From Asticcacaulis machinosus (GTDB lineage Bacteria > Pseudomonadota > Alphaproteobacteria > Caulobacterales > Caulobacteraceae), in contig NZ_JAQQKV010000003.1 of NCBI RefSeq assembly GCF_028550435.1, positions 62,001 to 126,000 of the forward strand: 64,000 nucleotides of DNA. Direction: 5' to 3'. Every line of letters starts with the position of its first letter. The stretch's first letter is position 1. A program made the position numbers and the translations under genes. Shown in pieces: positions 18,996-64,000 of the stretch. The notes beneath the pieces were generated by a model. That model was not told where the DNA came from. It saw only the letters and a list, made by a program, of their open reading frames with translations, and searched no databases.

Positions 18996-19125
18996 TTATG
19001 CCTTTAACGCTTCACGCATTTCCTCTAAGCCCAGCCATTCCATTTCACCGGCCTCAAGATCGCTTTTCAGGCGGTCGAGCGTGACCATAGTGGCATCGAA
19101 CTTTTTCGGGGTCTTTGCGTGTCCG
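18996..19125 (-). pseudogene. Remnant: 3' end of an ABC-F ATPase gene
   Basis: Read on the minus strand this encodes AKTPKKFDATMVTLDRLKSD and continues to a stop after REALKA. The intact ABC-F gene at 20656-22482 ends AKNPKKFDATMITLGRIKAD... REALKG. About 97 of 110 aligned bases match, and the amino acid changes are few and mild. No upstream part of the gene is present. It marks the far edge of the insert carrying the SnoaL-like and LytTR genes. Confidence 0.9.
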
Positions 19126-19261
19126 GCCCCGTTCAGGTCTTTTTGAAGACGCCGCCGACCTCGCCATAGAGGGATGGCGGGGCCGTATCTGTGCCTCTTT
19201 CAGCCGATGATCACGTCGGTGCGGAATGCTGCCTAAAGCTTTCAGACGGTAGCTGACCGGT

Positions 19262-19795
19262 TTAGCGAACATCCATGATAGCGGTATGCACGATCTGCCA
19301 GCCATCAGCGCGGTTTTCCAACACGAAGTGCATATGGGTACGCCGAAGCGTCTCGCCCGCAATGCGGGACGGGCCTCTGGGGCCTTCGGTATAGAGGTGG
19401 ATGACGGCCGCCGTTTGCCCCAGGCAACGGTAGGAAATCGGGCGGATACCGGCGGCTTCGCGTTCAGAGACGGATGTCTCAAACATTGGAAACAGCCGTG
19501 TTTGCAGGAATTTTCCCAGTTCTGCGGCATCCTGAAACTGACGCCCGTAGGCGTTGATCCATTCTGTATCCGGCGCGTGCATGGCTATAACCGCAGACGT
19601 ATCCTGAGCGCCCCAGACCTTTTTGAAATGTTCGACCGTAGTGTTCAGGCGGCTTAGGTCGTCCGGGGTGCAGGCAAAGCTGCGAAACGGCGGTATAACC
19701 TGCGGGGCGCTGGCGGACGTTTGTGCGTGCGCACTGATCACGGGCAAGGCGAGGCTCAGGGCCAAAGCGGCGATCAAAAGGGGTTTCAAGGGCAT
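19262..19795 (-). CDS. Secreted SnoaL-like/DUF4440-type protein
   Basis: 177 aa. Signal peptide MPLKPLLIAALALSLALPVISAHA, then a single compact domain: FACTPDDLSRLNTTVEHFKKVW, DTSAVIAMHAPDTEWINAYG, LGKFLQTRLF, and C-terminal strands MHFVLENRADGWQIVHTAIMDVR. This order (helices, then a curved sheet ending in W-x-I-V-H) is that of the NTF2-like SnoaL/SgcJ group, whose members are often of unknown substrate. Start at 19795 chosen for the signal peptide and the GGAGA box just upstream. It is divergent from the LytTR gene 100 bases away, and both lie inside the insert bounded by the two ABC-F 3' ends. Confidence 0.75.
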   Translation of the reverse strand: MPLKPLLIAALALSLALPVISAHAQTSASAPQVIPPFRSFACTPDDLSRLNTTVEHFKKVWGAQDTSAVIAMHAPDTEWINAYGRQFQDAAELGKFLQTRLFPMFETSVSEREAAGIRPISYRCLGQTAAVIHLYTEGPRGPSRIAGETLRRTHMHFVLENRADGWQIVHTAIMDVR

Positions 19796-19894
19796 TGTTT
19801 TCTCCGTTGTTTTGCGGTTAAGTCGGGCCGGTACATGAGGCCCGCTGGCGCCTGTGCCACGGTTGTAATGCACTGAAAACAAAAGGGTCGTCAG

Positions 19895-20659
19895 ATGTCC
19901 GCCATTGTCGCCAGTGGTCCGTTCAAGGCACCGGACTTAAAGCCAGCCCCCCTGTCGGGGCCGCACCGGACAGGGCGGTTTATAATGGTTTGTGTCTGCG
20001 TTCTGGCGGCTATCATGACCGTGAGCGGGGCCTATGGTACGCGCGATCTATGGGTGGGGCACCGGCTGTTGCTGTGGGGGACGGTGGCGAGTTTGCTGGT
20101 CGGTCAGGTCACGGGATTGATGGCCTTGGGGATACGATTTGCGCCCAGATGGCCGTTATGGCTGACAGGTTCTGTGGTGCTGATGGCGGTGGTGCCGTTG
20201 ATAGCGGCAGAACTGCATGGCCTGAAATATACGCCGCTTTTGCCGAAGGCACCTGATCCGATCTGGCCGTTCATGGGGTTTGTGGCGCCGCCGGTTTGGG
20301 TGGTGGGCGGGGTGATATTATGGCTCATGCCGCGTGGCGTGTCGCAGTCTGGACACCAGCCTTTAAAACCCGTGCCCGTCGGGACTGAAACGGCCACTGT
20401 GCGCTATGTTCGCGTCCATGACCATTATCTTGAGATCCACACAGACAGCGCAAAACGCTTTATTCGTGGCGGTTTGCGCGGCTATGTCCGTGGTCTGCGC
20501 GGCGGAGAGGTGGTGCACAGGTCGTGGTGGGTGGCGTATGACAGCGTGGAGCGGATGGAGCGACGTGGACGCGATTATGTGCTGGTGCTGACGGACGGGG
20601 TGGAAGTCCCGGTGGCGCGCGCAAAACTTGAGGCTGTGCGTAAGGCCCTGAAGGGTTAG
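19895..20659 (+). CDS. Membrane-anchored LytTR DNA-binding protein
   Basis: 254 aa. Four predicted membrane helices: about 30-48 (FIMVCVCVLAAIMTVSG), 55-78 (LLLWGTVASLLVGQVTGLM), 86-104 and 128-146 (WVVGGVILWLMP). The C-terminal 90 residues are a LytTR domain: VRYVRVHDHYLEIHT, GGLRGYVRGL, VHRSWWVAYDSVERMERRGRD and VLTDGVEVPVAR. Proteins of this build act as membrane-tethered transcription regulators, often autoregulated with a neighbour; the divergent secreted SnoaL-like gene is the obvious candidate target. The stop overlaps the stop of the convergent ABC-F gene by four bases, showing how tightly the insert abuts that gene. Confidence 0.85.
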   Translation: MSAIVASGPFKAPDLKPAPLSGPHRTGRFIMVCVCVLAAIMTVSGAYGTRDLWVGHRLLLWGTVASLLVGQVTGLMALGIRFAPRWPLWLTGSVVLMAVVPLIAAELHGLKYTPLLPKAPDPIWPFMGFVAPPVWVVGGVILWLMPRGVSQSGHQPLKPVPVGTETATVRYVRVHDHYLEIHTDSAKRFIRGGLRGYVRGLRGGEVVHRSWWVAYDSVERMERRGRDYVLVLTDGVEVPVARAKLEAVRKALKG

Positions 20660-22482
20660 CCCTTTAACGCTTCACGCATTTCCTCAAGGCCCAGCCATTC
20701 CATTTCACCGGCTTCCAGATCAGCCTTGATCCGGCCGAGCGTGATCATAGTGGCATCGAACTTTTTCGGGTTTTTGGCATAGAGGTCAGGGTCGGCCAGC
20801 ACCGCCTCAAGCGCTTTGATTTCCGCCTCCCATTTCGGCATGAAGGCGGTCAGGTCATCAAGGCGCTTTTGATCCTTATAGCTCAGTTTTTTGGTGGCCG
20901 TTTTTGCGGGGGCTACCGTCGGCGCAGGCGTAAAGGTCTTGCCCGTGGTTTTTTCACGCGATTTCGAGCTGATCTCACTAAAGAAATCCGGATTTTGTCT
21001 CAGGAAATCCTGCCAGCCGCCGGGCGTTTCAACTGCCCCGCCGCGTCCGTTGAGCGCTAAGGTCGAGGTCGCCAGCCGGTCGATGAAATCCCGGTCGTGG
21101 GACACGAGGATCAGCGTGCCGTCAAAGTCGGCCAGCATGTCCTCAAGCAGGTCGAGCGTGTCCATATCCAGATCGTTGGTCGGTTCATCGAGCACCAGCA
21201 GATTGGTCGATTTGGCCAGAGCCCGCGCCAGTTGCAGGCGGTTGCGTTCCCCGCCCGACAGGGACTTAACCGGCTGACGCAACTGATTGTCGCGGAACAG
21301 GAAATCCTTGGCGTAGGCGGCGACGTGCTTGGGCTGACCCTGCACCAAAATCTGATCCGAGCCTGAATTCGCCAGCATGTCCCACAGGGTTTCATCGCCC
21401 TTGAGCGCGTCGCGGCCCTGATCGAGATAGGCGACCTCAAGCGCGGTACCAAGTTTGATTTCGCCGCTATTGGCCGGTTCCTGTCCCAACAGTAACTTGA
21501 TCAGGGTGGACTTACCCGCGCCATTGGGGCCGACGATAGCCAGGCGGTCACCGCGCATGATGCGGGTCGAAAAATCGTTGAGCAACACCTTATCGCCAAA
21601 GGATTTAGATACCCCTTTGAGTTCGGCGACCAGCTTGCCCGATGTGCCGCCGGAATCGATCGACATTTCCATGGTCTTGGAGCGTTGCAGCAGGCGCGCA
21701 GACGCATCGGCGCGCATGGCGTTGAGGCGGGCGGCACGGCCTTCGTTGCGAGTACGGCGGGCGGTAATCGACGAATAAAAAGTCTTGGTTTCGCGCTCAA
21801 TCGCCTTTTGCAGGCGGTTGAGGGATTCTTCATCGTCCTTCATGACCTGATCGGACCAGGCTTCAAACGACGAATAGCCCGCATCAAGCTGACGCACCTT
21901 GCGGTTATAGAGCCAGTAGCAGCGCTGTGTGACGCGTTCCAAAAATGTCCGGTCGTGGCTTACCACTAAAACCGCGCCGCGGAACGACCTGATACGGTCT
22001 TCGAGGGTTTCAATCGCAAAAATATCGAGGTGGTTGGTCGGCTCATCGAGGAAGATCAGGTCGGGCTCTTCGGCAAACGCCTTGGCCAGAGCGGCGCGGC
22101 GCTTTTCGCCCCCCGAAAGTCCCGCCGTCTGCTTTTGCGGATCAAGGCCAAAGGCATAAAGCTCGGCTTCGGCGGTATAATGTTCCGCGCCGGCTGAGGT
22201 CAGCCAATCCAGCAGGGTCTCACCGACCGGCTCCGGTTCCTGAAGCACGAACGCGTACTTCATGCCGTTCATGACGATGCGCTCGCCGGAATCGGCCTCA
22301 ATCAGACCGGCCATCAGGCGCATCAGCGTGGATTTACCCGCGCCGTTTTTCCCGACCAGACAGGCGCGGACATTGCGCTCAAGTGCTATGTCAACCCCGT
22401 CAAATAACGGGTGGGAGCCATCCATCAGGCGGATGTCTTTGAGGGCGAGCAGGGGGGCTTTGGTGCTGGGTGTTTTGGCCAT
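20656..22482 (-). CDS. ABC-F family ATPase, Uup-like
   Basis: 608 aa soluble protein with two ABC domains and no membrane part. Domain 1: Walker A GKNGAGKST, signature LSGGEKRRAALAKA, Walker B LIFLDEPTNHLD. The linker is followed by domain 2: GPNGAGKSTL, LSGGERNRLQLARA, LLVLDEPTNDLD. The C-terminal part has a Lys/Ala/Pro-rich spacer and a coiled coil (KLSYKDQKRLDDLTAF...). This build matches Uup, a ribosome-associated or DNA-structure-related ABC-F. The frame is open for another 115 codons upstream, but that stretch crosses a palindromic repeat; the ATG at 22482 begins the normal first domain. Its 3' end is duplicated at 18996-19125. Confidence 0.92.
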   Translation of the reverse strand: MAKTPSTKAPLLALKDIRLMDGSHPLFDGVDIALERNVRACLVGKNGAGKSTLMRLMAGLIEADSGERIVMNGMKYAFVLQEPEPVGETLLDWLTSAGAEHYTAEAELYAFGLDPQKQTAGLSGGEKRRAALAKAFAEEPDLIFLDEPTNHLDIFAIETLEDRIRSFRGAVLVVSHDRTFLERVTQRCYWLYNRKVRQLDAGYSSFEAWSDQVMKDDEESLNRLQKAIERETKTFYSSITARRTRNEGRAARLNAMRADASARLLQRSKTMEMSIDSGGTSGKLVAELKGVSKSFGDKVLLNDFSTRIMRGDRLAIVGPNGAGKSTLIKLLLGQEPANSGEIKLGTALEVAYLDQGRDALKGDETLWDMLANSGSDQILVQGQPKHVAAYAKDFLFRDNQLRQPVKSLSGGERNRLQLARALAKSTNLLVLDEPTNDLDMDTLDLLEDMLADFDGTLILVSHDRDFIDRLATSTLALNGRGGAVETPGGWQDFLRQNPDFFSEISSKSREKTTGKTFTPAPTVAPAKTATKKLSYKDQKRLDDLTAFMPKWEAEIKALEAVLADPDLYAKNPKKFDATMITLGRIKADLEAGEMEWLGLEEMREALKG

Positions 22483-22560
22483 GCGCCAGCGTGTACTATC
22501 CCGCACCGCAAACGGCAAGGACTTGATTTTGACACGCGGCGGGCCGATAAGGCGCATTAT

Positions 22561-22695
22561 TCCTCCTCCCCTGTTTACGGGGGAGGTGGCACAGCTCAAG
22601 CTGTGACGGAGGGGGCATGTCGCCGCTCTGGGGTATGCCCCCTCCGTCTGCTCGTTTCTCTCGCATCCACCTCCCCCGTAAACAGGGGAGGAGAA
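22561..22695. repeat. Palindromic intergenic element, copy 2 (complete type A)
   Basis: Outer arms CCTCCTCCCCTGTTTACGG and CCGTAAACAGGGGAGGAG. Inner hairpin CACAGCT-CA-AGCTGTG between the GGTGG and ACGGAGGGGG boxes. It lies between the divergent ABC-F and ycgN genes, and its right arm (GGGGAGGAG, 22685-22693) stands nine bases before the ycgN ATG. Confidence 0.92.
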
Positions 22696-22702
22696 AGTAT
22701 CG

Positions 22703-23746: not shown

Positions 23747-24157
23747 ATGGAAACGACACCGGCCCTGCCTTCTAATGAAATCGCAAAGCTTAGGCGCGAC
23801 CACATCAATCGGCTGCTGATTGTTGCGGATCGGATGGTGGCGGATGCGGAAAAGCTTAAGCGGCCAACGGAACCGGCCGATCTCGAAAAACATGCCAAGG
23901 CGCTTTTGACCGTGACCAAGACCGTGGCGGAAATCCACGATCTGGCCGTGCGCACCGAAGCGTCATGCGGAGACGCGGATATGAATGACCCAGACTATGA
24001 ATCAGATAACGGGCCAGAGAACGGACCCGATGGCGGCAATACCCTTGCCGACTGGCGCAGCTTCTTTGAACGCAAACTCGATCGCCTTGCTGACGCCGCA
24101 GGCGAGGCAGGCGTGGCTGAACAGCCTGACGATCGAACAGTTCAGACGCCTCCATAA
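23747..24157 (+). CDS. GTA small terminase-like protein (gp1 position)
   Basis: 136 aa from the ATG at 23747. Seen: a helical N-terminal half (NEIAKLRRDHINRLLIVADRMVADAEKL, DLEKHAKALLTVTKTVAEIHDLAVR) and an acidic, disordered linker (DMNDPDYESDNGPENGPDG) followed by WRSFFERKLDRLADAAG. It lies immediately upstream of and overlapping terL, the position of RcGTA gp1, now understood as the small terminase. I cannot confirm homology from sequence alone; position and helix-linker-helix build are the basis. CCCCG-6nt-CGGGG at 23714-23729 lies just before it and could be part of the cluster promoter. Confidence 0.6.
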   Translation: METTPALPSNEIAKLRRDHINRLLIVADRMVADAEKLKRPTEPADLEKHAKALLTVTKTVAEIHDLAVRTEASCGDADMNDPDYESDNGPENGPDGGNTLADWRSFFERKLDRLADAAGEAGVAEQPDDRTVQTPP

Positions 24158-41681: not shown

Positions 41682-41820
41682 TACTCCCCCAACTTGTTGG
41701 GGGAGGTGGATCGGTGCGCAGCGACGAGACGGAGGGGGGCGCCGCCGTTGGCCCCCACCACAACATCTCATCGCTACGCGATTTCGTGTGGTCCCCCTCC
41801 CCAACAAGTTGGGGAGGTAT
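41682..41820. repeat. Palindromic intergenic element, copy 12
   Basis: ACTCCCCCAACTTGTTGGGGGAGG at the left and CCTCCCCAACAAGTTGGGGAGG at the right, with GGATCGG...CGACGAGACGG between. The right 73 bases are nearly identical to 42690-42764, so the gene 41855-42511 is flanked by direct copies. Confidence 0.9.
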
Positions 41821-41854
41821 GATAGGGTAGGCTTAGAGATTCGGAGGGGGAAGT

Positions 41855-42549: not shown

Positions 42550-42762
42550 GCGCTGCCCCCTCCGTCTTTTGCTAACGCAAAATCCACCTCCCCACTTCGT
42601 AGGGAGGAGGGTGTTATTTCTCCTCCCTGTTGCGTAGCAATGGGGAGGTGGATGCGAACATAGTGAGCAGACGGAGGGGGGCGTCGTCGTTGGCCCCCAC
42701 CACCACATCTCATCGCTGTGCGATTTCGTGCGGTCCCCCTCCCCAACGAGTTGGGGAGGTAT
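42550..42762. repeat. Palindromic intergenic elements, copy 13 (half plus full)
   Basis: 42550-42609 is a right half only (CCCCCTCCGTC, stem TTTTGC-TAAC-GCAAAA, CCACCTCCCCAC, GGGAGGAG). 42615-42762 begins CTCCTCCCTG and ends with the CCTCCCCAACGAGTTGGGG arm shared with copy 12. Confidence 0.9.
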
Positions 42763-42764
42763 GA

Positions 42765-51558: not shown

Positions 51559-51682
51559 TTTCTCCTCCCCATTTTATGGGGAGGTGGCTGTGAGCATTGC
51601 GAACAGACGGAGGGGTATGGCTGGCGAAGATACCCCTCCGTCTCGTAAAACTCGACACCTCCCCACAATGTGGGGAGGAGAG
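51559..51682. repeat. Palindromic intergenic element, copy 17 (complete type A)
   Basis: TTCTCCTCCCCATTTTATGGGG and CCCCACAATGTGGGGAGGAG ends, left stem CTGT...ACAG, GACGGAGGGG and CCCCTCCGTC boxes. It follows degP and precedes its terminator. Confidence 0.9.
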
Positions 51683-52601: not shown

Positions 52602-54149
52602 ATGTCCAAACCGCCCACCCCGAAAAAAAACTTCAACCCCCTAAACGCCCTCGGGGCGTTTCTGGCCTGGGCGGGCGGATTATTCCGGCCGACCTATTTC
52701 AGGCAGACGCCGTTCCGGCTGACGCTGGTGTTCATCACCGTCTATTCATTCGTGGCGGTGCTGATCTTTGCCTATGTCTATGTGGCGACGTCGGCGGAAA
52801 ACCGGGCGGTGACGGATGCGCAGGTCTCGGCCCGCCTTGATGGTCTGCAACAGCTTTACCGTGAACGGGGTGAGGCCGAGGTCAAGGCCCGCCTGCGTCA
52901 GGACGACATCACCGAATGGTTCTTCATCAAGGGCATTTATAACTCGAACGGCGAGATGGTCGCCCAGAATAAACGCGCCTCGCTTGAGATGTCGACTGAG
53001 GTGTTAAGCCGTATCCGCGCACAGGTCGATACGCCCCAGATCGAAGGCCGGATGCTGGGCGAAGCGCCGGGCCGCAGCGATTTTGTCATCAATTTCCGCA
53101 GCTATAATAATGACGGTTCCATGCGTAAATACCGCTATCGCGGGCAGGGACTGCGCATCGATCCGGATCGTTACCTGTTTGTGGCGATGGATATGTCGTG
53201 GACGGACGAAGGCTTTGACAAGGGCTTTACCGCCTTGTGGGGCGGCGCGATTCTGGTGGTGTTCATGGGGCTATTTGCCGGCATGATCATCAATCAGGAA
53301 GTGTCGCGCTCGGTACAGGGCCTGATGAGCGTGCTCAGAAGCGCCGAGCAGGGCGATCTTAAGGTGCGGGTGCCGCTGCGCCATTCGGGGGATGAATTTG
53401 ATGCCCTGGCCACTCAGGTCAATCAGGTGCTCGACCGCGTTGAAAAAAATGTCGGCAGCCTGAAATATGCCGGTGACGCCATCGCCCATGATCTGCGCAC
53501 GCCCTTGTCGCGGTTGCGGTCTAACCTTGAACTGTCACTGTATGATGTCGAAAAAGACCCCTCAAAGGCTGAGGACGCCTTGTCGCGGGCATTGACCGAA
53601 ACCGATCAGTTGCTGCGCACGTTCCAGACGGTGTTTGCCATTTCGCGCCTTCAGGCGGCGGGGCAGGCGCCTGATCCGAAACTGTTTGATGCCACAGCGC
53701 TGGCGGCTGATATGGCCGAACTTTATGAACTGTCGGCCGCGGATAAGGGCCTTGAGTTCGAGGCGGAGATAGAGCCGAACGTGTGGGTTATGGGTAACCG
53801 TGATTTTCTGGCGCAATCACTGGCCAACCTGCTCGATAACGCTATCAAATATACGGCGGTGGGCGGGATCACCTTCCGGTTGCGTAAGACCTCACGCGGG
53901 GAGATCGAGTTCTCGATCACCGACACCGGCATGGGCGTGCCCGAAGCCGACCGCGCCCGCATTGTTGAGCGTTTTGTGCGGCTGGAACAGAGCCGCTCCC
54001 TGCCCGGTGTGGGGTTGGGTCTGTCTATGGTGGCGGCGGTGGCCGAGGCTCACAAAGGCCGTCTGGTCATCGACGAAGGGCCGGGCCGGTTCAATGATCA
54101 GGGGCCGGGATTGCGTACGGCCTTGGTTCTGCCGCCCACTCAAGGCTGA
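52602..54149 (+). CDS. Sensor histidine kinase, 3' end matched by a second copy
   Basis: 515 aa. Membrane helices about 41-64 (FRLTLVFITVYSFVAVLIFAYVYV) and 212-232 (ALWGGAILVVFMGLFAGMIIN), periplasmic sensor between them, HAMP domain (QGLMSVLRSAEQGDLKVRVPLRHSGDEFDALATQVNQVLDR), H-box DAIAHDLRTPLSRLRSNLE, N-box LANLLDNAIKY, G1 ITDTGMGVPE, G2 PGVGLGLSMVAAVAEAHKG. The last 138 bases (54012-54149) have a diverged twin at 60794-60931. It is the last core gene before the galactonate-type island. Confidence 0.93.
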   Translation: MSKPPTPKKNFNPLNALGAFLAWAGGLFRPTYFRQTPFRLTLVFITVYSFVAVLIFAYVYVATSAENRAVTDAQVSARLDGLQQLYRERGEAEVKARLRQDDITEWFFIKGIYNSNGEMVAQNKRASLEMSTEVLSRIRAQVDTPQIEGRMLGEAPGRSDFVINFRSYNNDGSMRKYRYRGQGLRIDPDRYLFVAMDMSWTDEGFDKGFTALWGGAILVVFMGLFAGMIINQEVSRSVQGLMSVLRSAEQGDLKVRVPLRHSGDEFDALATQVNQVLDRVEKNVGSLKYAGDAIAHDLRTPLSRLRSNLELSLYDVEKDPSKAEDALSRALTETDQLLRTFQTVFAISRLQAAGQAPDPKLFDATALAADMAELYELSAADKGLEFEAEIEPNVWVMGNRDFLAQSLANLLDNAIKYTAVGGITFRLRKTSRGEIEFSITDTGMGVPEADRARIVERFVRLEQSRSLPGVGLGLSMVAAVAEAHKGRLVIDEGPGRFNDQGPGLRTALVLPPTQG

Positions 54150-54346
54150 GTGCCGGGCGGCAGGACGCAATTGCCGAAAACGTGGTTTCCACCAAAGCGA
54201 AATAAATTAATTTTGGCGGCTGCGACCTGTGAACCGAGAGAAAATTTCTTTAAGCATATATATAATACAAATGTTGATTTTAGCCTGATCTTTGTTAATA
54301 GTCGCAGCACGCCCCGTCAGAGCGGCGACTTTTACAGGAGAGCGAC
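54150..54346. promoter_or_regulatory. AT-rich promoter region of the galactonate-type island
   Basis: Much lower GC than the flanks (TTTAAGCATATATATAATAC near 54250). It carries the island's leader with AGGAG seven bases before the transporter ATG. A GntR operator is likely here, but I could not define one. Confidence 0.45.
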
Positions 54347-55786
54347 ATGGCTGTAATTATGGGCGGCTCAGGTGGCGGCGATCCGGTGACACCGGGCAGA
54401 CTGAATATCGGATATATCTGGGTTATTTCCGCCATAGCGGCGCTGGGCGGCTTGCTGTTCGGCTATGACTGGGTCGTCGTCGGTGGTGCCAAGCCGTTTT
54501 ACGAAGCCTATTTCGGACTGACGTCGGAAGTTCTGGTCGGCTGGGCCAACAGTTGCGCATTGCTGGGCTGTCTGGCCGGATCGATACTGGCAGGGTTTAT
54601 GTCCGACCGGTTCGGGCGCAAGCCGCTTTTGATCCTATCGGCCATACTTTTTGCGTCATCGTCGATCCTGACCGGATGGGCGACTTCGTTCGATGCGTTT
54701 ATCATCTGGCGCATAGTCGGTGGAGTGGCCATCGGCGTGGTGTCCAATGTATCCCCGACCTATATTGCCGAAATCAGCCCGCCGGCCTGGCGCGGGCGGC
54801 TGGTGACGCTTAATCAGCTAACCCTCGTGGTCGGCATACTGGCGGCGCAGATCGTCAATCTGCTGATTGCCGGTTCCGGCACGGAGGCTACCAGCCATGA
54901 AGCCATTCGCGCCACCTGGGCCGGAGAATATGGCTGGCGCTGGATGTTTACAGCCGTGGCGGTGCCTTCGATTGTGTTTCTGGTCTGCGCGTTATTTGTG
55001 CCGGAGAGCCCGCGTTGGTTGGTCAAGGCGGGAGCGATAGATAAGGCAAAGGCCGTCTTTGCGCGTATCGGTGATGACACCTATGCGCAGGCGCAGGTCA
55101 ACGATGCCGTCCACAATTTAAGCCAGAACAGCGCCCGCGTCAGTTGGCGTGAACTGTTCCGTCCCGCCCTGTTGGCGGTTCTGATGATGGGTATAGGCCT
55201 TGCCGTGCTTCAGCAATGGAGCGGCACCAATGTCATCTTCAACTATGCCGAAGAAATCTATCGCGGAGCGGGCTATGACCTGAGCGGCATCATGTTCAAC
55301 ATCGTTATTACCGGTGCGATCAATCTGATCTTTACGCTGGTCGCCACCGCCTTTGTGGACCGGGCCGGGCGCAGAGCGCTGATGCTGTGGGGGGCAGGCG
55401 GCATGGCGCTCATTCATGGCTGTCTGGGGCTGGCGTTTTTCATGAACATCACCGGCGTAGTCGTGCTGGGCCTGACCTTGGCGGTCATTGCGCTTTATGC
55501 CATGTCGCTGGCGCCAATTACCTGGGTGCTGCTGTCGGAAATTTTCCCGACCCGCATACGAGGATTGGCCATGTCGATTTCCGTCTCAGCCCTGTGGATT
55601 GCCTGCTTTGCGGTCACCTTTACCTTCCCGATCATGAACGCCGCGTTGGGCGCGTCAGGGACATTCTGGTGTTACGGTCTGATCTGCCTGTTTGGGTTTT
55701 TCCTGATCCGCAAGTTTGTGCCCGAAACCAAGGGCCGGTCGCTGGAAGAGATCGAAGCCCAGCTTGGCGTGTCTAAGGGCGCATAG
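54347..55786 (+). CDS. Sugar porter MFS transporter
   Basis: 479 aa, twelve helices, sugar porter (SP) branch. Seen: ALGGLLFGYDWVVVGGAK (helix 1), SDRFGRKPLL and the loop-8 counterpart VDRAGRRALML, PESPRWLVKAG at the end of helix 6, QQWSGTNVIFNYAEEIY (helix 7 sugar site QQ-x-S-G-x-N), and PETKGRSLEEIE near the C-terminus. In this context it probably imports galactose, arabinose-like sugars or a derivative feeding the galactonate route. First gene of the island operon. Confidence 0.9.
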   Translation: MAVIMGGSGGGDPVTPGRLNIGYIWVISAIAALGGLLFGYDWVVVGGAKPFYEAYFGLTSEVLVGWANSCALLGCLAGSILAGFMSDRFGRKPLLILSAILFASSSILTGWATSFDAFIIWRIVGGVAIGVVSNVSPTYIAEISPPAWRGRLVTLNQLTLVVGILAAQIVNLLIAGSGTEATSHEAIRATWAGEYGWRWMFTAVAVPSIVFLVCALFVPESPRWLVKAGAIDKAKAVFARIGDDTYAQAQVNDAVHNLSQNSARVSWRELFRPALLAVLMMGIGLAVLQQWSGTNVIFNYAEEIYRGAGYDLSGIMFNIVITGAINLIFTLVATAFVDRAGRRALMLWGAGGMALIHGCLGLAFFMNITGVVVLGLTLAVIALYAMSLAPITWVLLSEIFPTRIRGLAMSISVSALWIACFAVTFTFPIMNAALGASGTFWCYGLICLFGFFLIRKFVPETKGRSLEEIEAQLGVSKGA

Positions 55787-55789
55787 GTG

Positions 55790-56515
55790 ATGGCCGTGGT
55801 ATCGCGCATGGGTTCGGCTATGGGTAACGCCACTCAGGCCATTGTCCAGACTCTGGGGACGGCCATCGTGACCGGTCAGTATGACGGCCAGCCGTTTCCG
55901 TCGGAAAAGGCGCTATGTGAGCAGTTTGCCGCGGCCCGCACCATAGTGCGCGAAGCGGTCAAGATGCTGGCCGCCAAGGGGCTGATCACCTCCCGCCCGC
56001 GTCAGGGCATCCGCATTGCGTCTGAGGATGACTGGAACCTGTTTGATACGGATGTACTCAGTTGGCTGCTGGAGCGGCGGTTTTCGCCGGAACTATTGCT
56101 CGATTTTATGGAAATGCGGCTGGCGGTCGAGCCTTCGGCCGCGGCACTGGCCGCCACACACGCCAGCGATGCCCAGAAAGCGGCGATCCGCGAGGCGGTT
56201 GAGCGCATGTATGCGGCGTCGCGCGGCGAAGAGGATGACCTGCGCGCCGATGTGGCTTTTCATGTGGCGGTGCTGGAGGCCAGCGGTAACCGCTTTTTCA
56301 AGCAAACCCGCGTCATGATCGCTACGGCCCTGACCATCAGCATCCGCTACACCAACCGCGTTAAGGGCGTCGCCCACGCCAGCGCGCAGGATCACGATAC
56401 GGTGGCGCGGGCCATACTGCGTGGCGAGCCTGTCCTTGCCCGCACCGCCATGCACAACCTGCTCGAAGGGGCGTTTGATCTGGTCAAAAGCCAGATCACG
56501 CCTGCCAAACCCTAA
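55790..56515 (+). CDS. GntR/FadR-type regulator, DgoR-like
   Basis: 241 aa. Winged helix: IVQTLGTAIVTGQYDGQPFPSEKALCEQFAAARTIVREAVKMLAAKGLITSRPRQGIRI. FCD domain: LLDFMEMRLAVEPSAAALAA, DVAFHVAVLEASGNRFF (Asp, His), AQDHDTVARAILRGEPVLARTAMHNLLEGAF. DgoR of E. coli has this build and sits beside dgoD. A GTG one codon earlier is an alternative start. It lies four bases after the transporter and 17 before dgoD, so all are one transcript. Confidence 0.87.
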   Translation: MAVVSRMGSAMGNATQAIVQTLGTAIVTGQYDGQPFPSEKALCEQFAAARTIVREAVKMLAAKGLITSRPRQGIRIASEDDWNLFDTDVLSWLLERRFSPELLLDFMEMRLAVEPSAAALAATHASDAQKAAIREAVERMYAASRGEEDDLRADVAFHVAVLEASGNRFFKQTRVMIATALTISIRYTNRVKGVAHASAQDHDTVARAILRGEPVLARTAMHNLLEGAFDLVKSQITPAKP

Positions 56516-56532
56516 CCCTCTGGAAAATCCGA

Positions 56533-57687
56533 ATGACGCTCTCATCGCCTATTATCAAGATCGAAACTCTGCCCGTGCCGCCGCGCTGGCTGTTTGTGCG
56601 GGTGGAAACCGAAGATGGTCGCGTCGGCTGGGGCGAAGCGTCGCTGGAAGGCCATACCGAAGCGGTTGACGGGGCGTTTGCCTCCCTGCGCGACCGCTTT
56701 ATCGGTGCTGATCCGTCCCGCATCGAAGATATGTGGCAGACGGCCTATCGTCTGGGGTTCTACCGCGGCGGGCCGGTGCTGATGTCGGCTCTGTCGGGGC
56801 TTGATCAGGCGCTGTGGGACCTTAAGGGCAAGGCGCTGAATGTGCCGGTCTGGCAGATGCTGGGCGGTGCGGTGCGTGACCAGATCCCGGTCTATGCCTG
56901 GATTGGCGGCGACCGTCCGTCTGATGTGGTCGAGGCCGCCCGCGTGCGCAAAAGCCAAGGGTTTAACTGCGTCAAGATGAACGGCACTGAGGATCTGGGT
57001 TGGCTCGATTCCCCCAAGGCGCTGGATGCGACGGTTGAGCGGCTTGAGGCGGTCAAGGCCGAGGGCATGGATGCCGGCCTTGATTTTCATGGCCGGGTCC
57101 ATAAGCCGATGGTGCGGCAACTGGCGCGCGCCCTTGAGCCCCTTCGGCCTTTGTTTATCGAGGAACCGCTGCTGAGTGAGCACCCGGAAGGCATCAAGCA
57201 GTTGTCCCTGCAAACCACCATCCCGATCGCGCTGGGGGAGCGGCTCTACAGCCGTTGGGACATCAAACCGTTCCTTGAGGCGGCCTCAATCGACATCCTG
57301 CAACCCGACCTGAGCCACGCCGGTGGTATCTCTGAGGTCAGGCGTATGGCCGCGATGGCCGAAGCCTATGACGTGGCCCTGGCACCCCATTGTCCGCTCG
57401 GGCCGATTGCGCTGGCGGCCTGTATGCAGGTGGCCGCGTCGACGCCGAATTTTGTCATTCAGGAAATGTCGCTGGGCATCCACTACAACACGGGCGGCCA
57501 TGACCTGTTGAGCTATATGACCAATCCCGAAGTGTTCGACGTGAACGACGGCATGGTGGCGGTGCTGACCGGGCCGGGGCTGGGGGTCGAGATTGATGAA
57601 GACAAGGTCCGCCGCTTAAGCCGCGACTGTCCCCCGTGGCGCAACCCGGTCTGGCGCGGGCCGGACGGCTATGTGAGGGAATGGTGA
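56533..57687 (+). CDS. dgoD: D-galactonate dehydratase
   Basis: 384 aa enolase-superfamily enzyme, close in length and pattern to E. coli DgoD: PPRWLFVRVETEDGRVGWGE, DPSRIEDMWQTAYRLGFYRGGPVLMSA, DQALWDLKGKALNVPVWQMLGG, metal ligands in GLDFHGRVHKP, LFIEEPLL and IALGERLYSRWD, then LQPDLSHAGGISE and the catalytic His in LAPHCPLGPIALAA. It converts D-galactonate to 2-keto-3-deoxygalactonate. The kinase and aldolase of the pathway are not in this window. Confidence 0.93.
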   Translation: MTLSSPIIKIETLPVPPRWLFVRVETEDGRVGWGEASLEGHTEAVDGAFASLRDRFIGADPSRIEDMWQTAYRLGFYRGGPVLMSALSGLDQALWDLKGKALNVPVWQMLGGAVRDQIPVYAWIGGDRPSDVVEAARVRKSQGFNCVKMNGTEDLGWLDSPKALDATVERLEAVKAEGMDAGLDFHGRVHKPMVRQLARALEPLRPLFIEEPLLSEHPEGIKQLSLQTTIPIALGERLYSRWDIKPFLEAASIDILQPDLSHAGGISEVRRMAAMAEAYDVALAPHCPLGPIALAACMQVAASTPNFVIQEMSLGIHYNTGGHDLLSYMTNPEVFDVNDGMVAVLTGPGLGVEIDEDKVRRLSRDCPPWRNPVWRGPDGYVREW

Positions 57688-58406
57688 TGCGCTTTGCTGG
57701 CAAAACATTTTTGATCACCGGTGCCGCCAGCGGGATCGGTCTTGCGGCGGCGCAGCGTCTGGCGGGTGAGGGGGCGAACCTTGCCCTGATCGACCGTAAT
57801 GCCGGGGCTATTGATGCCGTGGCGGCGGAACTGGGCGCGCTGGCGCTACCTTGCGATGTCGCTGATGAGGTGGCGCTTAAGGCCGCTTATGATCAGGCAT
57901 TGGTCCATTTCGGCTATATCGACGGGTTGGTCAATGTCGCCGGCGTCATGATCTATAAAGGTTTGGGCGAGCTTTCTGGCGATGACTGGCACCGGCTGAT
58001 GAGCATCAATTTCTATGCCGCCGCTAACCTGACCCAAAGGGCGTTTGCCACCATGACCCGCGGCGGCAGTCTGGTCTTTGTCGGCAGTATCCATAATGTG
58101 CAGACCTCGCCTCTGGTTGGGCCTTATGCGGCGGCCAAGGCGGCTCTGTCGTCTCTGGCGCGCACCGCTTCGATTGAAGGTAAGGCGTTGAATATCCGCG
58201 CCAATGCCGTCCTGCCGGGGGCGGTCGATACGCCGCTGTTGCGCGAAAGCCCAAATATCAAATCCGGCGCCGAAGTGCTCGACCCCGCCGATATCGGCAG
58301 ACCCGAAGACATCGCGGCGGCCATTGCCTTCTTGCTCAGTGATGATGCGGCGTTTGTGACCGGTGCGTCGATAGTGGTTGATGGCGGGCGCCTGGCCAAA
58401 CTTTAA
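57687..58406 (+). CDS. Short-chain dehydrogenase/reductase
   Basis: 239 aa classical SDR. Cofactor site TGAASGIGLAAAQRL with Asp after strand 2 (LALIDRN), so NAD is likely; NVAGVM, the catalytic Ser in VFVGSIHNVQ and Y-x-x-x-K in YAAAKAAL; C-terminal ITGASIVVDGGRL-like end (VTGASIVVDGG). Located one base after dgoD (TGATG), so it probably oxidises a sugar to the lactone or acid that DgoD uses, for example galactose; this is inference. An upstream in-frame start would overlap dgoD. Confidence 0.87.
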   Translation: MRFAGKTFLITGAASGIGLAAAQRLAGEGANLALIDRNAGAIDAVAAELGALALPCDVADEVALKAAYDQALVHFGYIDGLVNVAGVMIYKGLGELSGDDWHRLMSINFYAAANLTQRAFATMTRGGSLVFVGSIHNVQTSPLVGPYAAAKAALSSLARTASIEGKALNIRANAVLPGAVDTPLLRESPNIKSGAEVLDPADIGRPEDIAAAIAFLLSDDAAFVTGASIVVDGGRLAKL

Positions 58407-58563
58407 CTGTGGCTGCCGGGGTATTGCAGATAGTCCGATCCGGATATTGATGCAGGCAATTCGGCACGAATGGTGACGCATGGCCCCCATGTCTGGTGAT
58501 AAAAAATTCCACAACACGCAACGGCGTTCCTCCGGTTAATGGCCCATTAAGGCAGATCGAATA

Positions 58564-58582
58564 ACCTTATAATTCATAAGGT
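58564..58582. promoter_or_regulatory. ACCTTAT-5nt-ATAAGGT palindrome
   Basis: Perfect seven-base arms about 23 bases before the ATG of the small membrane protein, in an AT-rich promoter-like stretch. Likely a repressor site; no regulator can be assigned. Confidence 0.55.
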
Positions 58583-58604
58583 AATTATATACTGTTGGGC
58601 AGGC

Positions 58605-58937
58605 ATGGCAGGGCATTTTACATCCACATCGGAAGCGATTGATTTCCGCTGGGTCGGGGCCGTGTTTGCGCTGTTTCTGGTGATGGGGCTGATGGTCTAT
58701 GCGTCCCCGCGTCCGGGCGGCAGTGTCGCGGTCATCGCATCACCATTTGCCAAAAACCTGACCGCCGCCGCGGTTGTTGTGCGGGCGGAGGGAATGTTTG
58801 AGGACAGTGCCTTGCGCGGGCAGATCATTATCGCCCAATCGGACAATCCCCGTTTCATCAGCGCCCTGTACGCCAGTGGCGCGCTTTTCGTATTCAATCC
58901 GCGCCTGCTGGCCGGATGTCGCCCACTAAAGGACTAA
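58605..58937 (+). CDS. Small membrane protein of unknown function
   Basis: 110 aa with one membrane helix (residues 14-33, FRWVGAVFALFLVMGLMVYA) and a short soluble domain (GGSVAVIASPFAKNLTAAAVVVRAEGMFEDSALRGQIIIAQSDNPRFISALYASGALFVFNPRLLAGC). I do not recognise a family. It precedes the chemoreceptor by 21 bases. Its last codons and stop lie in an 8-base tandem repeat, so changes in copy number would alter the last residues. Confidence 0.65.
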   Translation: MAGHFTSTSEAIDFRWVGAVFALFLVMGLMVYASPRPGGSVAVIASPFAKNLTAAAVVVRAEGMFEDSALRGQIIIAQSDNPRFISALYASGALFVFNPRLLAGCRPLKD

Positions 58938-58955
58938 AGGACTAAAGGACTAAAG
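58925..58955 (+). repeat. 8-base tandem repeat ACTAAAGG, about four units
   Basis: Three exact units plus ACTAAAG and a partial ACT. It contains the stop codon of the small membrane protein and the AAAGG-type ribosome binding region of the chemoreceptor at 58959. Confidence 0.9.
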
Positions 58956-58958
58956 ACT

Positions 58959-60422
58959 ATGGATGCACTGATTGGCCTGAGGCAGCGCTTTGGTATCGCG
59001 TTGATCGTCTTTCTATGGGCGAACCTGCTGGTGTTGGGGGTGATGCCGCTGGTGTTTCGCACCGGCGTAGACCTCATGGTGCCGCTGGGGGCGGGGGCGG
59101 TCATTTGCGCGCTGTCGAGCTTTGTGTGGATGAAGGATAAGATCGGCGCCACCACCCGTCTGATCACCTCTATGGCGCTGGCGGCGATGGTGTCGCTGAT
59201 GGTCTATGTGTTCGACGGCCATGCGTTTCAGATCGACATGCACATGTATTTCTTTGCCGCTCTGGCGCTGATTGCCGGCTGGTGCGACTGGCGCGCCCTG
59301 ATTGCCTATGCCGGGCTGGTGGCCGTGCATCACCTGTCGCTGAACTATATCATGCCGGCGGCCGTTTTTCCTGAAAGCCAGCCCGATCTGATCCGTGTTG
59401 TGCTGCATGCGGTGATCCTTGTGCTGCAAACCACGCTCCTGACCTGGCTGGTGCAGACGCTGGAGCATAGTTTTGCCGAAGGTGACAAGGCCCTGATGGC
59501 CGCCCATGCGGCTGAGGCCGAAGCCCGCGCCCTGTCCGTGCGTCAGGCTGAGATTCAGGAAGAGGAAATGCTGCGCATCCGCGCCCGCGACCAGATGGCT
59601 GGGCAACTGATTGAGCGGGTGCAGAGCCTGACGACCGGCTTTAACCAGACCTCCCATGAGATCGCTCAGGCGGCCCGCAGCCTGACCAGCGCCGTCAATG
59701 AAACCACGGTAACCGCGCAAAGGGTTACTGACTCCGCCGAAGCCGCGTCGGGCAGCGTCCAGACCGCCGCCTCCGGGGCCGAAGAACTGTCGCACTCGAT
59801 TCAGGAAATCAACGCCCAGGTAAGCCATTCGGCGGCGGTGGCGGTATCGGCTGCAGAAGAAGCCTCCAGCACGACCGAAAACATCGCCATCCTCAGTTCC
59901 GCGGCGGGCAAGATCGGCGATGTGATTGAGTTGATCCGTGCCATCGCGTCCCAGACCAATCTTTTGGCGCTCAACGCAACCATCGAGGCGGCGCGCGCGG
60001 GTGAAGCCGGTAAGGGCTTTGCCGTTGTGGCGACTGAGGTCAAATCGCTGGCCAACCAGACGGCGCGGGCGACCGATGAAATCGCCACCAAGGTCAATGA
60101 AATCCAGTCCGCCACCGAAGTCACAGTGCAGTCGATTGAGCGCATTGTGGCCACGATTGAGATGATCCGCTCCTCCACGACCGCGATTGCCGGCGCGGTG
60201 GATCAGCAGGGCGCGGCCACTCAGGACATTGCCGCTAATACGGCGCGGGCCGCCTCAGGCACCTCAGACGTCAGCGGTCAGATCACGACCGTGACGGCGG
60301 CGGCTCAGGAAACCGGCGTGGCGGCGGAGCAATTACGCGGACTGTCGGATGCTCTGGCCGATCAGGCGGGCGCACTGGAAACGGAAATCGCCGCCTTTGT
60401 GGATCGCCTTAAGGCCGCGTGA
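58959..60422 (+). CDS. Methyl-accepting chemotaxis protein with six-helix membrane domain
   Basis: 487 aa. The N-terminal 170 residues contain about six membrane helices ([71 protein letters not shown] with a conserved HH pair) and no large periplasmic loop. After a coiled linker comes the signalling domain: [32 protein letters not shown] and the hairpin tip [26 protein letters not shown]. No HAMP domain seen. Within the galactonate-type island it may report on a membrane-soluble or redox-linked cue rather than on the sugar itself. Confidence 0.9.
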
Positions 60423-60787
60423 TGACTCCTGCGGGCCTTATGCGTCCACATCTTCCTGCCGCGCTTCATGGGGGTAAAGTCTTCCCCCGGCGCATTGGCA
60501 CTGGCTCGCTCCAGCCAGCGCAAGTCCTCTTTCAGGTCGCGCGGTACGTCTGCGCCGGCGATGTAGATTTGCGCCAGCATCATGGCCGCCTCAGCGCGCG
60601 GGCTCATGGTGTCAGGGTTTTGAGGATCGAAATGTTCCTGCTGATGGATCGGCTTTTCGGCGATCTTGCGGTACCAGATGATGGCCGTTTTGGCATTTTT
60701 GGGTGTCCCCATGCCTTTTAAGTACATGTCACCGATCATCAGGGCAGCCGTTTCGTGCCCTATCTTGCCGTAAGCGCTCTGGAACAT
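60362..60787 (-). pseudogene. Truncated Sel1/TPR-repeat gene at the island edge
   Basis: On the minus strand HETAALMIGDMYLKGMGTPKNAKTAIIWYRKIAEK and AEAAMMLAQIYIAGADVPRDLKEDLRWLERA are two Sel1-type repeats. The frame begins abruptly at 60787, six bases from the start of the kinase 3' copy, with no upstream start region or signal peptide, so the 5' part is missing. The tail overlaps the chemoreceptor 3' end. Confidence 0.65.
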
Positions 60788-60793
60788 GGCGAG

Positions 60794-60931
60794 GGCTTAG
60801 GTCTGTCGATGGTGGCGGCGGTGGCCGAAGCCCACAAAGGCCGTCTGGTCATCGACGAAGGGCCGGGCCGGTTTAACGATCAGGGGCCGGGTCTGCGCAC
60901 CGCGCTGGTTTTGCCCCCGACACAGGGGTGA
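60794..60931 (+). pseudogene. Remnant: 3' end of the histidine kinase gene
   Basis: Encodes GLGLSMVAAVAEAHKG... to ALVLPPTQG and stop, identical in all 45 residues to the end of the kinase at 54012-54149. 119 of 138 bases match and all 19 differences are synonymous. It has no start and stands directly before the glnE side of the locus, which suggests this was the original neighbour. Confidence 0.93.
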
Positions 60932-60944
60932 GGGAGGACTGAAG

Positions 60945-61041
60945 AAGCCCCCACCACCATATCTCGCCTTTCGGCTCGTATGGTTCCCCTCCCCGCCAAG
61001 CCTGGGGAGGTCTGATTTATCAGACCGGAAGGTGGGGGCTT
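60945..61041. repeat. Palindromic intergenic element, copy 19
   Basis: AAGCCCCCACC and GGTGGGGGCTT outer arms; CCTCCCC...GGGGAGG and TCTGAT-TT-ATCAGA inner stems. It follows the kinase remnant. Confidence 0.88.
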
Positions 61042-61063: not shown

Positions 61064-61480
61064 CTATGACGGAAAGGATTTGTCATCCGCAATTATGACC
61101 GACATATCGTTGGCTGTATTGCTTGGTTGAACTTTCTCGCCATTTATCATGACGATGCAGCTATCAAACTCCTGCAAGTAAATTTGTATAGAACCCTCAT
61201 AGACAAAGGTCGATAGGCCAAGGCCCATCCAGTTCGGGTCTTGATCGTAAATTATCGTAAGTTCATCATCAGGGTTTAGAATATAAAGATCCGGATTCAT
61301 CTCTACCCAGATTTCCATTGATTTTCCAGTTTTATTGGTAAACTGCTGAATGTGTCTGCCGGGTGCGTAAGAGAAATCTTGACTATAAGAGAATTCCTTA
61401 GTTGCAACTACCGAGCTATTGGTTTCAGGCACGGCAGCACTGATCTTGAGCCATTTTTTTATCTTTTTAAATAATGACAT
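61064..61480 (-). CDS. Unknown small protein, low GC
   Basis: 138 aa. Basic N-terminus (MSLFKKIKKWLKISAAVPE) and a beta-rich remainder (APGRHIQQFTNKTGKSMEIWVEMNPDLYILNPDDELTIIYDQDPNWMGLG, TFVYEGSIQIYLQEFDSCIVMING). No family recognised. The base composition is far more AT-rich than its neighbours, and it lies in the gap between the island edge and glnE, so it looks acquired. An open frame of this length with coherent strands supports a real gene. Confidence 0.6.
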   Translation of the reverse strand: MSLFKKIKKWLKISAAVPETNSSVVATKEFSYSQDFSYAPGRHIQQFTNKTGKSMEIWVEMNPDLYILNPDDELTIIYDQDPNWMGLGLSTFVYEGSIQIYLQEFDSCIVMINGEKVQPSNTANDMSVIIADDKSFPS

Positions 61481-61678: not shown

Positions 61679-64000
61679 ATGACCGACCTGTTGTTTTCGC
61701 CTCTGGCCGACCTGATGACACCGTGCGGGCCGGTGCTGGAAGAGGCCGCCGCCGGTTTCACGTTTGAAACCCTGGCTGAAGCGGCGCAGATCGAGGACTG
61801 GACGGATCTGCTTGAGACGGCGCGTCCGGCCCTTGAGCCCATTGTGGCGGCATCGCCTTATCTTTCCGGTTTGATGCGCCGCAGCCCGCACCGCCTTTAT
61901 GAAACCCTGTCCGCCGCCCCCGAAGCCCGCCTGAAAGCTATATTACAGGCCACTGACGCTATCACGGAACAGGCCCTGACAGCGCCGGCGATCGATGCCG
62001 AGGCTGCCAAGCGCACCTTGCGCCAGCTCAAGGCCGACACCCATCTTTTGACCGCTCTGGCCGATCTGGGTGAGGTGTGGAAACTGGATCATGTGACCGC
62101 GGCGCTTACCCGCTTTGCCGATGCGGTGACCCAGGCCGCGCTTGCCGTAGCGGTGCGCGAAGAACGCGATAAAAAGCGGTTGTTGCCCACCGCTGCCGAT
62201 GATGAGCGCGGCATTCTGCCCGGCCTGTTTGTGCTGGCTATGGGCAAGCACGGGGCGGGAGAACTGAACTATTCGTCGGATATCGACATCACCTTTTTCT
62301 GTGAGATGGCGCAGTTGCCGCTGGCCGATGGGGTGGAGCCGCAAGGCCTAACCGACCGGATTGCGCGTCGGGTGTCTAATATCCTCAGCGACCGCACAGC
62401 CGACGGTTATGTCTTTCGGGTTGATCTGCGCCTGCGGCCTGATCCGTCGTCGACCCCGACCGTGGTGTCGGTGCCGTTTGCGCTCAATTACTATGAGACC
62501 GTGGGGCAAAACTGGGAACGGGCGGCCTTCATCAAGGCGCGCGCCTGCGCAGGCGATATGGTTGAGGCGAAGGACTTCATGCAGGCCTTGTCGCCGTTCA
62601 TCTGGCGGCGCAGTCTTGATTACCCCGCCATTGCCGACGTCCAGTCAATCAAGCGCCAGATCCATGTCCATAAGGCCGATGAGCGGCTCTATGCGGCAGG
62701 GGCGAACCTGAAACTGGGCGCGGGTGGTATTCGGGAAATTGAGTTTTTCGCCCAGACCCAGCAGTTGATCCTCGGCGGACGCGATCCATCCCTGCGGTCG
62801 CGGCGGACCACGGATGCGCTCGATGCCCTGCGCAAGGCCGGGCATCTGGCCCCGGCGGTGTCCAAGGAACTTAAGCAGTGTTACGGCCGTCTACGCGACT
62901 GGGAACACCGCGTTCAGATGCTCAATGATGAGCAGACCCACAACCTGCCCGAAAACGATACCGACCGGCTCAAGGTCGGGGTGATGGCGGGGTTTTCCAA
63001 CCTCAGCCGGTTTGATCTGGCGGTGTCGCGCACTCTGCGCACGGTGAACAGCCACTATGGTGAGCTGTTTTCGGACGGTGAAAACCTGTCGTCGTCGTTC
63101 GGGTCGCTGGTCTTTACGGGTGTAGAGGATGATCCGGAAACCCTTAAAACCCTTGAGCGCATGGGCTTTGATGACCCGCACGGCGTGGCAGCGACGGTGC
63201 GGTCATGGCATCATGGCCGCATCCCGGCGACACGGACCGAGCGCGGGCGCGAACTGTTTACCCGCCTGGTGCCACGCCTGCTTGAGGCGCTGAATGAGAC
63301 CGGCACGCCACAGGTTGCCTTTAAGCGCTTTGCGGCGTTTTTCTCAGGGCTGACCGCCGGTGTGCAGATTCAGTCGCTGTTTCTGGCCAATCACCGCCTG
63401 TTTAAGATGGTGGTCGAAATCATGGGCTTTTCGCCGCGGCTGGCGATTTTGCTGGCGCGCCACCCGACCGTGTTTGACGCTATGCTGGATGCCGGATTCT
63501 TTGACCCATTGGGCGAAGAACTGGACGCGATTGTTCAGGACGAAGTCGACCGGGTTCCTGACGATCTGGAATCGGTGATGAACGCCTTGCGCCGAGTTGG
63601 GCGTGAGCAGCAGTTCCGCATCGGGATGCAGATCATCAATGCGCGCCTGACCACGGAGGCGGCGGGGGCGGCCTATGCGCGGCTGGCCGATGCCTGCATC
63701 ACCCATCTGGCGCCCTTGAGCCTTGCCGATGTGGCCCGTCAGGCCGGTCATTTAAGCGGTCATGTGGCGGTGGTGGCGCTGGGGAAACTGGGCTCGCAGG
63801 AGATGACGGCGCGCTCTGATCTCGACCTGATGACGATCTATCTGCCCGATGATCCGTCCGAGGTTTCAACCGTTAAGGGCTGGGCGGCGGAGACCTATTT
63901 TGCGCGCTTTACCCAACGCCTGATTTCGGCCCTGTCCGCCCCGACCCATGAGGGGTTGTTGTACGAAATCGATATGAAACTGCGGCCAACCGGCGCCAAG
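61679..64000 (+). CDS. glnE: Glutamine synthetase adenylyltransferase/deadenylylase (partial)
   Basis: 774 codons are present and the frame is open at the window edge; the family is usually about 950-1000 aa. Start ATG at 61679 (MTDLLFSPLADLM). First nucleotidyltransferase domain (deadenylylation): LAMGKHGAGELNYSSDIDITFF, FRVDLRLRPDPSSTPTV. Middle helical regulatory region: AGGIREIEFFAQTQQLILGG, RDWEHRVQMLNDEQTHNLP. Second domain (adenylylation): VALGKLGSQEMTARSDLDLMTIY, YEIDMKLRPTGAK at the edge. It adjusts glutamine synthetase activity with PII. Confidence 0.97.
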   Translation, partial: MTDLLFSPLADLMTPCGPVLEEAAAGFTFETLAEAAQIEDWTDLLETARPALEPIVAASPYLSGLMRRSPHRLYETLSAAPEARLKAILQATDAITEQALTAPAIDAEAAKRTLRQLKADTHLLTALADLGEVWKLDHVTAALTRFADAVTQAALAVAVREERDKKRLLPTAADDERGILPGLFVLAMGKHGAGELNYSSDIDITFFCEMAQLPLADGVEPQGLTDRIARRVSNILSDRTADGYVFRVDLRLRPDPSSTPTVVSVPFALNYYETVGQNWERAAFIKARACAGDMVEAKDFMQALSPFIWRRSLDYPAIADVQSIKRQIHVHKADERLYAAGANLKLGAGGIREIEFFAQTQQLILGGRDPSLRSRRTTDALDALRKAGHLAPAVSKELKQCYGRLRDWEHRVQMLNDEQTHNLPENDTDRLKVGVMAGFSNLSRFDLAVSRTLRTVNSHYGELFSDGENLSSSFGSLVFTGVEDDPETLKTLERMGFDDPHGVAATVRSWHHGRIPATRTERGRELFTRLVPRLLEALNETGTPQVAFKRFAAFFSGLTAGVQIQSLFLANHRLFKMVVEIMGFSPRLAILLARHPTVFDAMLDAGFFDPLGEELDAIVQDEVDRVPDDLESVMNALRRVGREQQFRIGMQIINARLTTEAAGAAYARLADACITHLAPLSLADVARQAGHLSGHVAVVALGKLGSQEMTARSDLDLMTIYLPDDPSEVSTVKGWAAETYFARFTQRLISALSAPTHEGLLYEIDMKLRPTGAK

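Follow-up and report, generated by a model that had tools for sequence, protein, structure and literature searches.

How does an island of accessory genes come to lie between two copies of one and the same gene end, with no integrase found among its genes? The question is raised by a locus of Asticcacaulis machinosus (Alphaproteobacteria, Caulobacteraceae) in which such an island separates a sensor histidine kinase gene from glnE, with one copy of the kinase 3′ end on either side. The locus lies in a 64,000-nucleotide stretch of contig NZ_JAQQKV010000003.1 (forward-strand positions 62,001 to 126,000; assembly GCF_028550435.1), here called the window and numbered from its first letter. A sequence-only reading had proposed that the island arrived joined to the kinase end of a related strain and recombined into the native gene, leaving the old end behind. 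The account that we favour, with about as much confidence as doubt, is one-anchor recombination from a related lineage, in which a homologous anchor on one side and an illegitimate join on the other would have left the resident kinase end behind.

Two silently different ends of one kinase gene

The intact kinase gene (52602..54149, plus strand; HAMP, HisKA and HATPase_c by Pfam) encodes 515 residues, and its protein is 96–97% identical in G020, G017, G013 and G005, the four near relatives used for comparison, whose DNA around the locus is mostly 81–91% identical. The 3′ end of this gene, copy A (54012..54149, plus strand), is repeated as copy B (60794..60931, plus strand), and a search of the organism's own genome returned only these two matches. 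Each copy is 138 bp long and encodes the same 45 residues followed by a TGA stop; alignments of the two stop at most one base from 54012/60794 and from the stop codons. Our recount agreed exactly with the sequence-only reading in finding 19 differences between A and B, 16 at third positions and 3 at first positions of leucine codons, every one of them synonymous (19/19), where about 28% of random single changes would be. The differences are unevenly spread: the first 39 bp contain 5 of them and the last 58 bp 14, while the 41 bp in between are identical. The identical 41-bp stretch (54051..54091 in A, plus strand), which is variable among the relatives, holds 13 whole codons, a run with a permutation P of about 0.004; in six pairs of relatives, runs of identical codons reach 7 to 11.

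Comparison with the four near relatives separates the two copies. Only B matches at least one relative at 11 one-sided sites and only A at 2 (one-sided binomial p 0.011), and because of this pattern B is probably the native tail and the end of A imported. Among the one-sided sites that precede the identical stretch, three match relatives in B (tail positions 2, 14 and 38) and one in A (35). In the last 58 bp (54092–54149 in A), A carries 10 private bases and B 3 when judged with four relatives, or 10 and 5 with three. Over the whole tail, with three relatives, private bases number 17/138 (0.123) in A and 10/138 (0.072) in B, alongside 65/1260 (0.052) in the kinase body and 128/2321 (0.055) in glnE. 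B is the less changed copy, and A looks most foreign after about 54087–54092. The expectation that the native end would be closest to the copy at 60794 is borne out by this site pattern but not settled by a tree of the tails (135 aligned bases), which rejected none of the three groupings, with approximately unbiased (AU) test p values of 0.759 for B with the relatives, 0.247 for A with the relatives and 0.247 for A with B. Among 299 genomes of the family, including the genus, none was closer to the donor tail than the four relatives already known. Composition gave no signal of foreignness, with a G+C content of 0.58–0.63 in the island genes and 0.57–0.62 in degP, the regulator, the kinase and glnE.

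We compared the locus across a genus set of 25 genomes, the window's own included. Matches to glnE (61679..64000, plus strand, continuing beyond the window; GlnE domains) were present in all 25, and kinase and glnE stand side by side in 19 of the 24 other genomes; for 18 of these the gap was measured (89–2223 bp) and for the nineteenth, G024, adjacency was judged from match coordinates. This is the arrangement that the sequence-only reading had predicted for other strains, and it contradicts the opposite outcome, that the two genes are never neighbours, which that reading had named as fatal to it. No second kinase tail occurs in any of the 18 measured gaps. The two genes are apart in G001, G012 and G013, contig ends interrupt the locus in G005, and a close kinase is absent from G019 (best match 32% identity). 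Among the named matches to the kinase are A. endophyticus and Asticcacaulis sp. UBA2476. In G013 (G013:C85, L087), the kinase is followed, in place of glnE, by a gene which we take from its sequence to resemble trmD.

Between B and glnE, the sequence common to the relatives restarts at 61589, 90 bp before glnE. The intervening 657 bp hold repeats and a 138-residue open reading frame (ORF), orf138; 27 bp past the stop of B align with G013, and two repeat pieces occur in the same order in G017. The ORF (61064–61480, minus strand) has a G+C content of 0.40, compared with 0.59 for the window, and had no Pfam or NCBIfam match. Dispersed repeats, some of them palindromic, were also seen at 41700–41822, 42642–42764, 51559–51681, 60942–61011 and elsewhere, and both this genome and related ones hold many partial copies of them.

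A composite island

The island begins with four plus-strand genes, namely a sugar porter family MFS transporter (54347..55786; TIGR00879 at 356 bits, cut-off 237.8; Sugar_tr), a GntR/FCD family regulator (55787..56515; Pfam), a galactonate dehydratase, DgoD (56533..57687; NF010624 equivalog, 564 bits against a cut-off of 311), and an SDR oxidoreductase (57684..58406; best NCBIfam match 175 bits, under the cut-off of 215) that may act as a sugar dehydrogenase. By these family matches, the four-gene operon likely serves a galactose or galactonate route. Positions 54413–58402 match a run of about 4 kb at 76–77% identity in G015, G012, G007 and G006; two of these four are A. excentricus replicons, whose records show genes of the same four kinds at that place.

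A second block follows (58520..60423, plus strand), made up of orf110 (58605–58937), which encodes a protein of 110 residues, and a chemoreceptor gene (58959–60422), and it is 90% identical to DNA beside prfC in G020. That site is empty in G005 and G013, with 5 bp between the flanks, and the block is also absent in G017. The block has sharp edges at two unrelated places, here and at 7780–9667 of L103, and no terminal repeats were seen by eye.

The third part is a fragment of a Sel1-repeat gene (60494..60793, minus strand; Pfam Sel1), with a DNA match at 60537–60784 and a protein match, at 60494–60829, to residues 184–295 of a 509-residue homologue. The fragment corresponds to the middle of that homologue, so the cut Sel1 gene that the sequence-only reading placed before the copy near glnE is confirmed and is in fact cut at both ends. 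It abuts tail B at 60793/60794; the protein match overruns this junction into B by 36 bp, and its stop (60797–60799) lies within the overrun. GGGC is present at the corresponding place in both the Sel1 homologue of G001 and the kinase of G017, relatives that stand in here for the parent sequences.

By these matches, the insert is composite, with no fewer than three parts: the galactonate-type operon, the orf110-chemoreceptor block and the Sel1 fragment. The proposal of a single island that came attached to the kinase end of a related strain is partly supported. No integrase, recombinase or transposase was detected by Pfam (E 0.001) in ten ORFs, of which seven belong to the island and one lies next to it, in agreement with the earlier statement that no integrase is present, and no plasmid-type family was found in the seven island ORFs. 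None of 1338 plasmid records with a match covers 80% of the island; the operon occurs at 76–77% on the two A. excentricus replicons.

Routes of entry

In the one-anchor account, DNA from a related Asticcacaulis lineage, carrying its own kinase end and downstream accessory genes, would have entered the genome, and the incoming kinase end would have recombined by homology with the resident kinase through a crossover at about 53.7–54.09 kb. At the opposite end, within the Sel1 gene, the join to the resident kinase would have formed without long homology, at a point 46 codons, counting the stop, short of the gene's end. The outcome would be a hybrid but intact kinase with the donor tail A, followed by the island, beyond which the resident tail B would be left by itself near glnE; the end of the kinase protein is unchanged because both tails encode the same residues. 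The resident DNA that could have been replaced is limited to the stretch between the crossover and 54012, and none is visibly missing.

A possible vehicle is encoded in the window itself. Genes for a terminase (23985–25352), a portal (25472–26662), a capsid (27979–29193) and a gene transfer agent TIM-barrel protein (34176–37910) lie between 23.9 and 37.9 kb, and we read them as a gene transfer agent cluster. Caulobacter gene transfer agent particles are described as carrying about 8.3 kb and as able to deliver DNA that recombines (PMC9632790), enough room for the roughly 7 kb of donor DNA envisaged here; such a particle is a candidate for the carrier.

Along the kinase, the density of private bases shifts with p 0.005 if sites are independent, the best position being 54087; the change-point support set also includes 53672–53738, 53936–53996 and two bases near 52686. 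With the two genes upstream supplying the native rate, starts at positions 54012–54092 stay within 0.0–3.6 log units, and the stretches 52632–52700 and 53736–53804 are also rich in private bases. The break that the sequence-only reading anticipated inside the kinase gene may be reflected in this change in density, but its position is loose.

Several observations weigh against the one-anchor account. The permutation assumes independent sites, and degP, upstream, carries 137/1533 (0.089) private bases, more than glnE or the kinase body, so that density varies without any tail being involved. Placing the start at 54012 carries a cost of 0.4–3.4 log units, depending on the assumed rate. The 41 identical bases of A and B are left without a firm explanation, the 657 bp between B and the shared glnE flank are mostly not in the relatives, and the donor arrangement was found in none of the genomes searched. 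Finally, the tail tree does not reject A and B as sisters, and five bases common to the two copies occur in none of the four near relatives; one possible joint reading is that donor and recipient were, in part of this stretch, closer to each other than to the four sampled relatives.

The main rival, a real possibility though a doubtful one, is a circular molecule, either a plasmid or a self-closed linear piece, that bore the donor tail and entered by one crossover inside it. The crossover would then divide each copy: at that point native sequence would give way to donor sequence in the intact kinase, and donor sequence to native sequence in B. The best change point, which falls within the duplicated and indeed the identical stretch, fits this event better than a one-anchor event; overall, the change point does not separate a one-anchor crossover at or before 54012 from a circle crossover inside the tail. 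There is also experimental precedent: of 60 recombinants in an E. coli experiment, the majority were partial duplications of gene ends, which were attributed to a single crossover, and 4/60 were one-anchor events (PMC3240628); Jackson et al. explain displaced rhs tips by way of circles (PMC2935791). The circle predicts, however, that A rather than B should resemble the relatives to the left of the identical stretch, and the reverse is seen; because B matches there at three one-sided sites and A at one, we favour the one-anchor event over the circle. The lack of plasmid-type families in the island ORFs scanned also speaks against a circle.

Local duplication of the kinase end within the lineage, with the copies diverging later, we consider distinctly unlikely. 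It would account for the five bases that A and B share, and the grouping of A with B, which the sequence-only reading had set down as grounds for giving up its proposal, is still allowed by the tree (AU p 0.247) and by those bases. A stranded fragment should, however, decay at all sites, yet 0 of the 19 differences alter a residue, and fewer changes have accumulated in the stranded copy than in the working one (2 against 11 one-sided sites). Highly improbable is a site-specific element that inserted at the kinase 3′ end, restored the gene with a silently recoded end and later lost its integrase: the architecture resembles that of e14 at icd (PMC6379469) and a 41-bp identical core is present, but no integrase family was found in the ORFs scanned, none of the 18 measured kinase-glnE gaps elsewhere holds a second tail, the homology reaches 39 bp to the left beyond the core, and the insert is a patchwork.

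A second gene end and known systems

A self-comparison of the window revealed a further gene-end pair, 20661–20778 and 19001–19118, 86% identical. It belongs to an ABC-F ATPase gene (20656..22554 for the stretch common to relatives, minus strand; ABC_tran, ABC_tran_CTD), whose last 41 codons with the stop, tail C (20656–20778, minus strand), look foreign by their private bases. The displaced tail D (18996..19118, minus strand) is native-like at most one-sided sites in the comparison with the four relatives. The locus as a whole spans 18996–22827, and the 1.5-kb insert between C and D (19119..20655) contains genes for a LytTR regulator and for a protein that matches DUF4440 weakly, below the cut-off, together with a remnant of the gene found next after ABC-F in relatives.

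From these comparisons, the ABC-F tail looks displaced in a similar way to the kinase tail, although the case is weaker by itself. C and D differ at 18 bases, among them changes at six residues. At four of the six, D has the residues of four of four relatives, V, D, L and S, in place of the I, G, I and A of the intact gene; at the other two, D alone departs, with T for N and A for G. Private bases number 13/123 in C, 9/123 in D and 2 or 3/123 in each relative. A density change near the ABC-F 3′ end (p 0.0025) has its best position, 21046, ahead of the duplicated stretch, and its support, from 21085 to 20735, extends into the duplicate. Three points weaken this case: one-sided sites favour D as native at 8 and C at 4, which alone is weak (p 0.19); private bases in the stretch before C are raised in G013 and G017 too; and D, unlike the first case, is followed by other DNA and not by its native flank. 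With both cases pooled, 19 sites against 6 favour the displaced copy as native (p 0.007). The ABC-F case is more rearranged than the kinase case and, because D carries residue changes, perhaps older. A large insertion or rearrangement of about 73 kb (G000:C3, about 7.6–81 kb; window 1–18990 and before) separates D from genes which in relatives lie a few kb at most past ABC-F.

Since both remnants lie outside the block that runs from ABC-F to the kinase, we also considered a single 41.7-kb block swap between the stranded tails (19119–60793). It is disfavoured, as the ABC-F and kinase bodies are mostly as native-looking as glnE, unlike A and C: private bases per site amount to 0.023–0.034 in five bins of the ABC-F body, next to the 0.052 of the kinase body and 0.055 of glnE. 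Such a swap keeps some probability, since degP inside the block stands at 0.089, 53736–53804 at 0.145 and 20999–20850 at 0.087.

We then scanned 1.15 Mb (G000:C3, 390 kb; 381 kb of G000:C1; 381 kb of G017) for same-strand repeats with one copy at an ORF end and the other without the gene. The first rule gave five 3′-end pairs (3, 1 and 1 by sample), with 3, 0 and 3 in a loose 5′ control. The remnant lies downstream of its gene in only two of the five, the kinase and ABC-F cases; in the other three it lies upstream and has either a length of just 66 or 73 bp or a similarity of only 71%. Under a matched rule covering both ends and both strands, there were three 3′-end pairs (2, 1, 0) and seven 5′-end pairs (6, 0, 1), of which five involve one dispersed repeat copy, 51559–51681. 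Because this matched control gave three pairs against seven, no preference for 3′ over 5′ ends is shown in the 1.15 Mb; the two cases stand out, and a general 3′-end preference is unsupported.

The process favoured for the kinase locus is already known, and the locus would be a clean example of it. In homology-facilitated illegitimate recombination (HFIR), as described in PMC3240628, one homologous end and one non-homologous join, as proposed for the kinase, import foreign DNA without an integrase, most joins showing microhomology of 3–10 bp. HFIR is known from transformation and conjugation experiments, whereas the kinase case is read from a natural genome, and the deletion of similar size generally seen there is not visible at the kinase. 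Displacement of rhs C-terminal ends (PMC2935791) and Vibrio type VI secretion system (T6SS) immunity-gene arrays (PMC5361080) are alike in that a resident 3′ end or gene is kept and pushed downstream of a newcomer. The kinase shows this rhs-like order of an old end downstream of a new one, although the tail tree does not prove which end is old. In those toxin loci, however, the new ends are non-homologous alternatives, whereas the kinase ends encode the same residues and the swap is silent.

The e14 prophage at icd in E. coli also supplies a replacement gene end and leaves a displaced one, of 163 bp (PMC6379469). The kinase locus shares the displaced end and the restored gene. Unlike this prophage with its site-specific integration, it showed no integrase in the ORFs scanned, and the 18 measured kinase-glnE gaps gave no sign that the site is used repeatedly in relatives. 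Recombination hotspots between core genes (PMC5635113) offer a likeness in gene turnover, as the contents of the kinase-glnE gap differ among relatives just as its length does, but homology exchange in both flanks would not be expected to leave a duplicated gene end. Unusual here are the silence of the swapped kinase ends at the protein level and the occurrence of two such cases in one window. A literature search on Asticcacaulis islands returned, by title, nothing on this subject.

Many integrase-free islands leave no trace of their entry route. A displaced tail that differs silently from the working one shows which side was anchored, which copy was resident and roughly how recent the event was. 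A broader idea, which we hold to be rather unlikely, is that gene 3′ ends serve in Asticcacaulis as landing places for integrase-free islands, through one anchor near the gene end and perhaps by way of gene transfer agent particles; the import would be tolerated as the imported tail keeps the protein working, and the resident tail would remain as a dateable, orientable fossil. We rate it low because the matched control scan gave no excess of 3′-end over 5′-end remnants. If true, the two fossils would mark two separate imports about 40 kb apart, flanking the gene transfer agent genes. Displaced tails can be searched for automatically, and integrase-free gene gain may thereby become countable across genomes.

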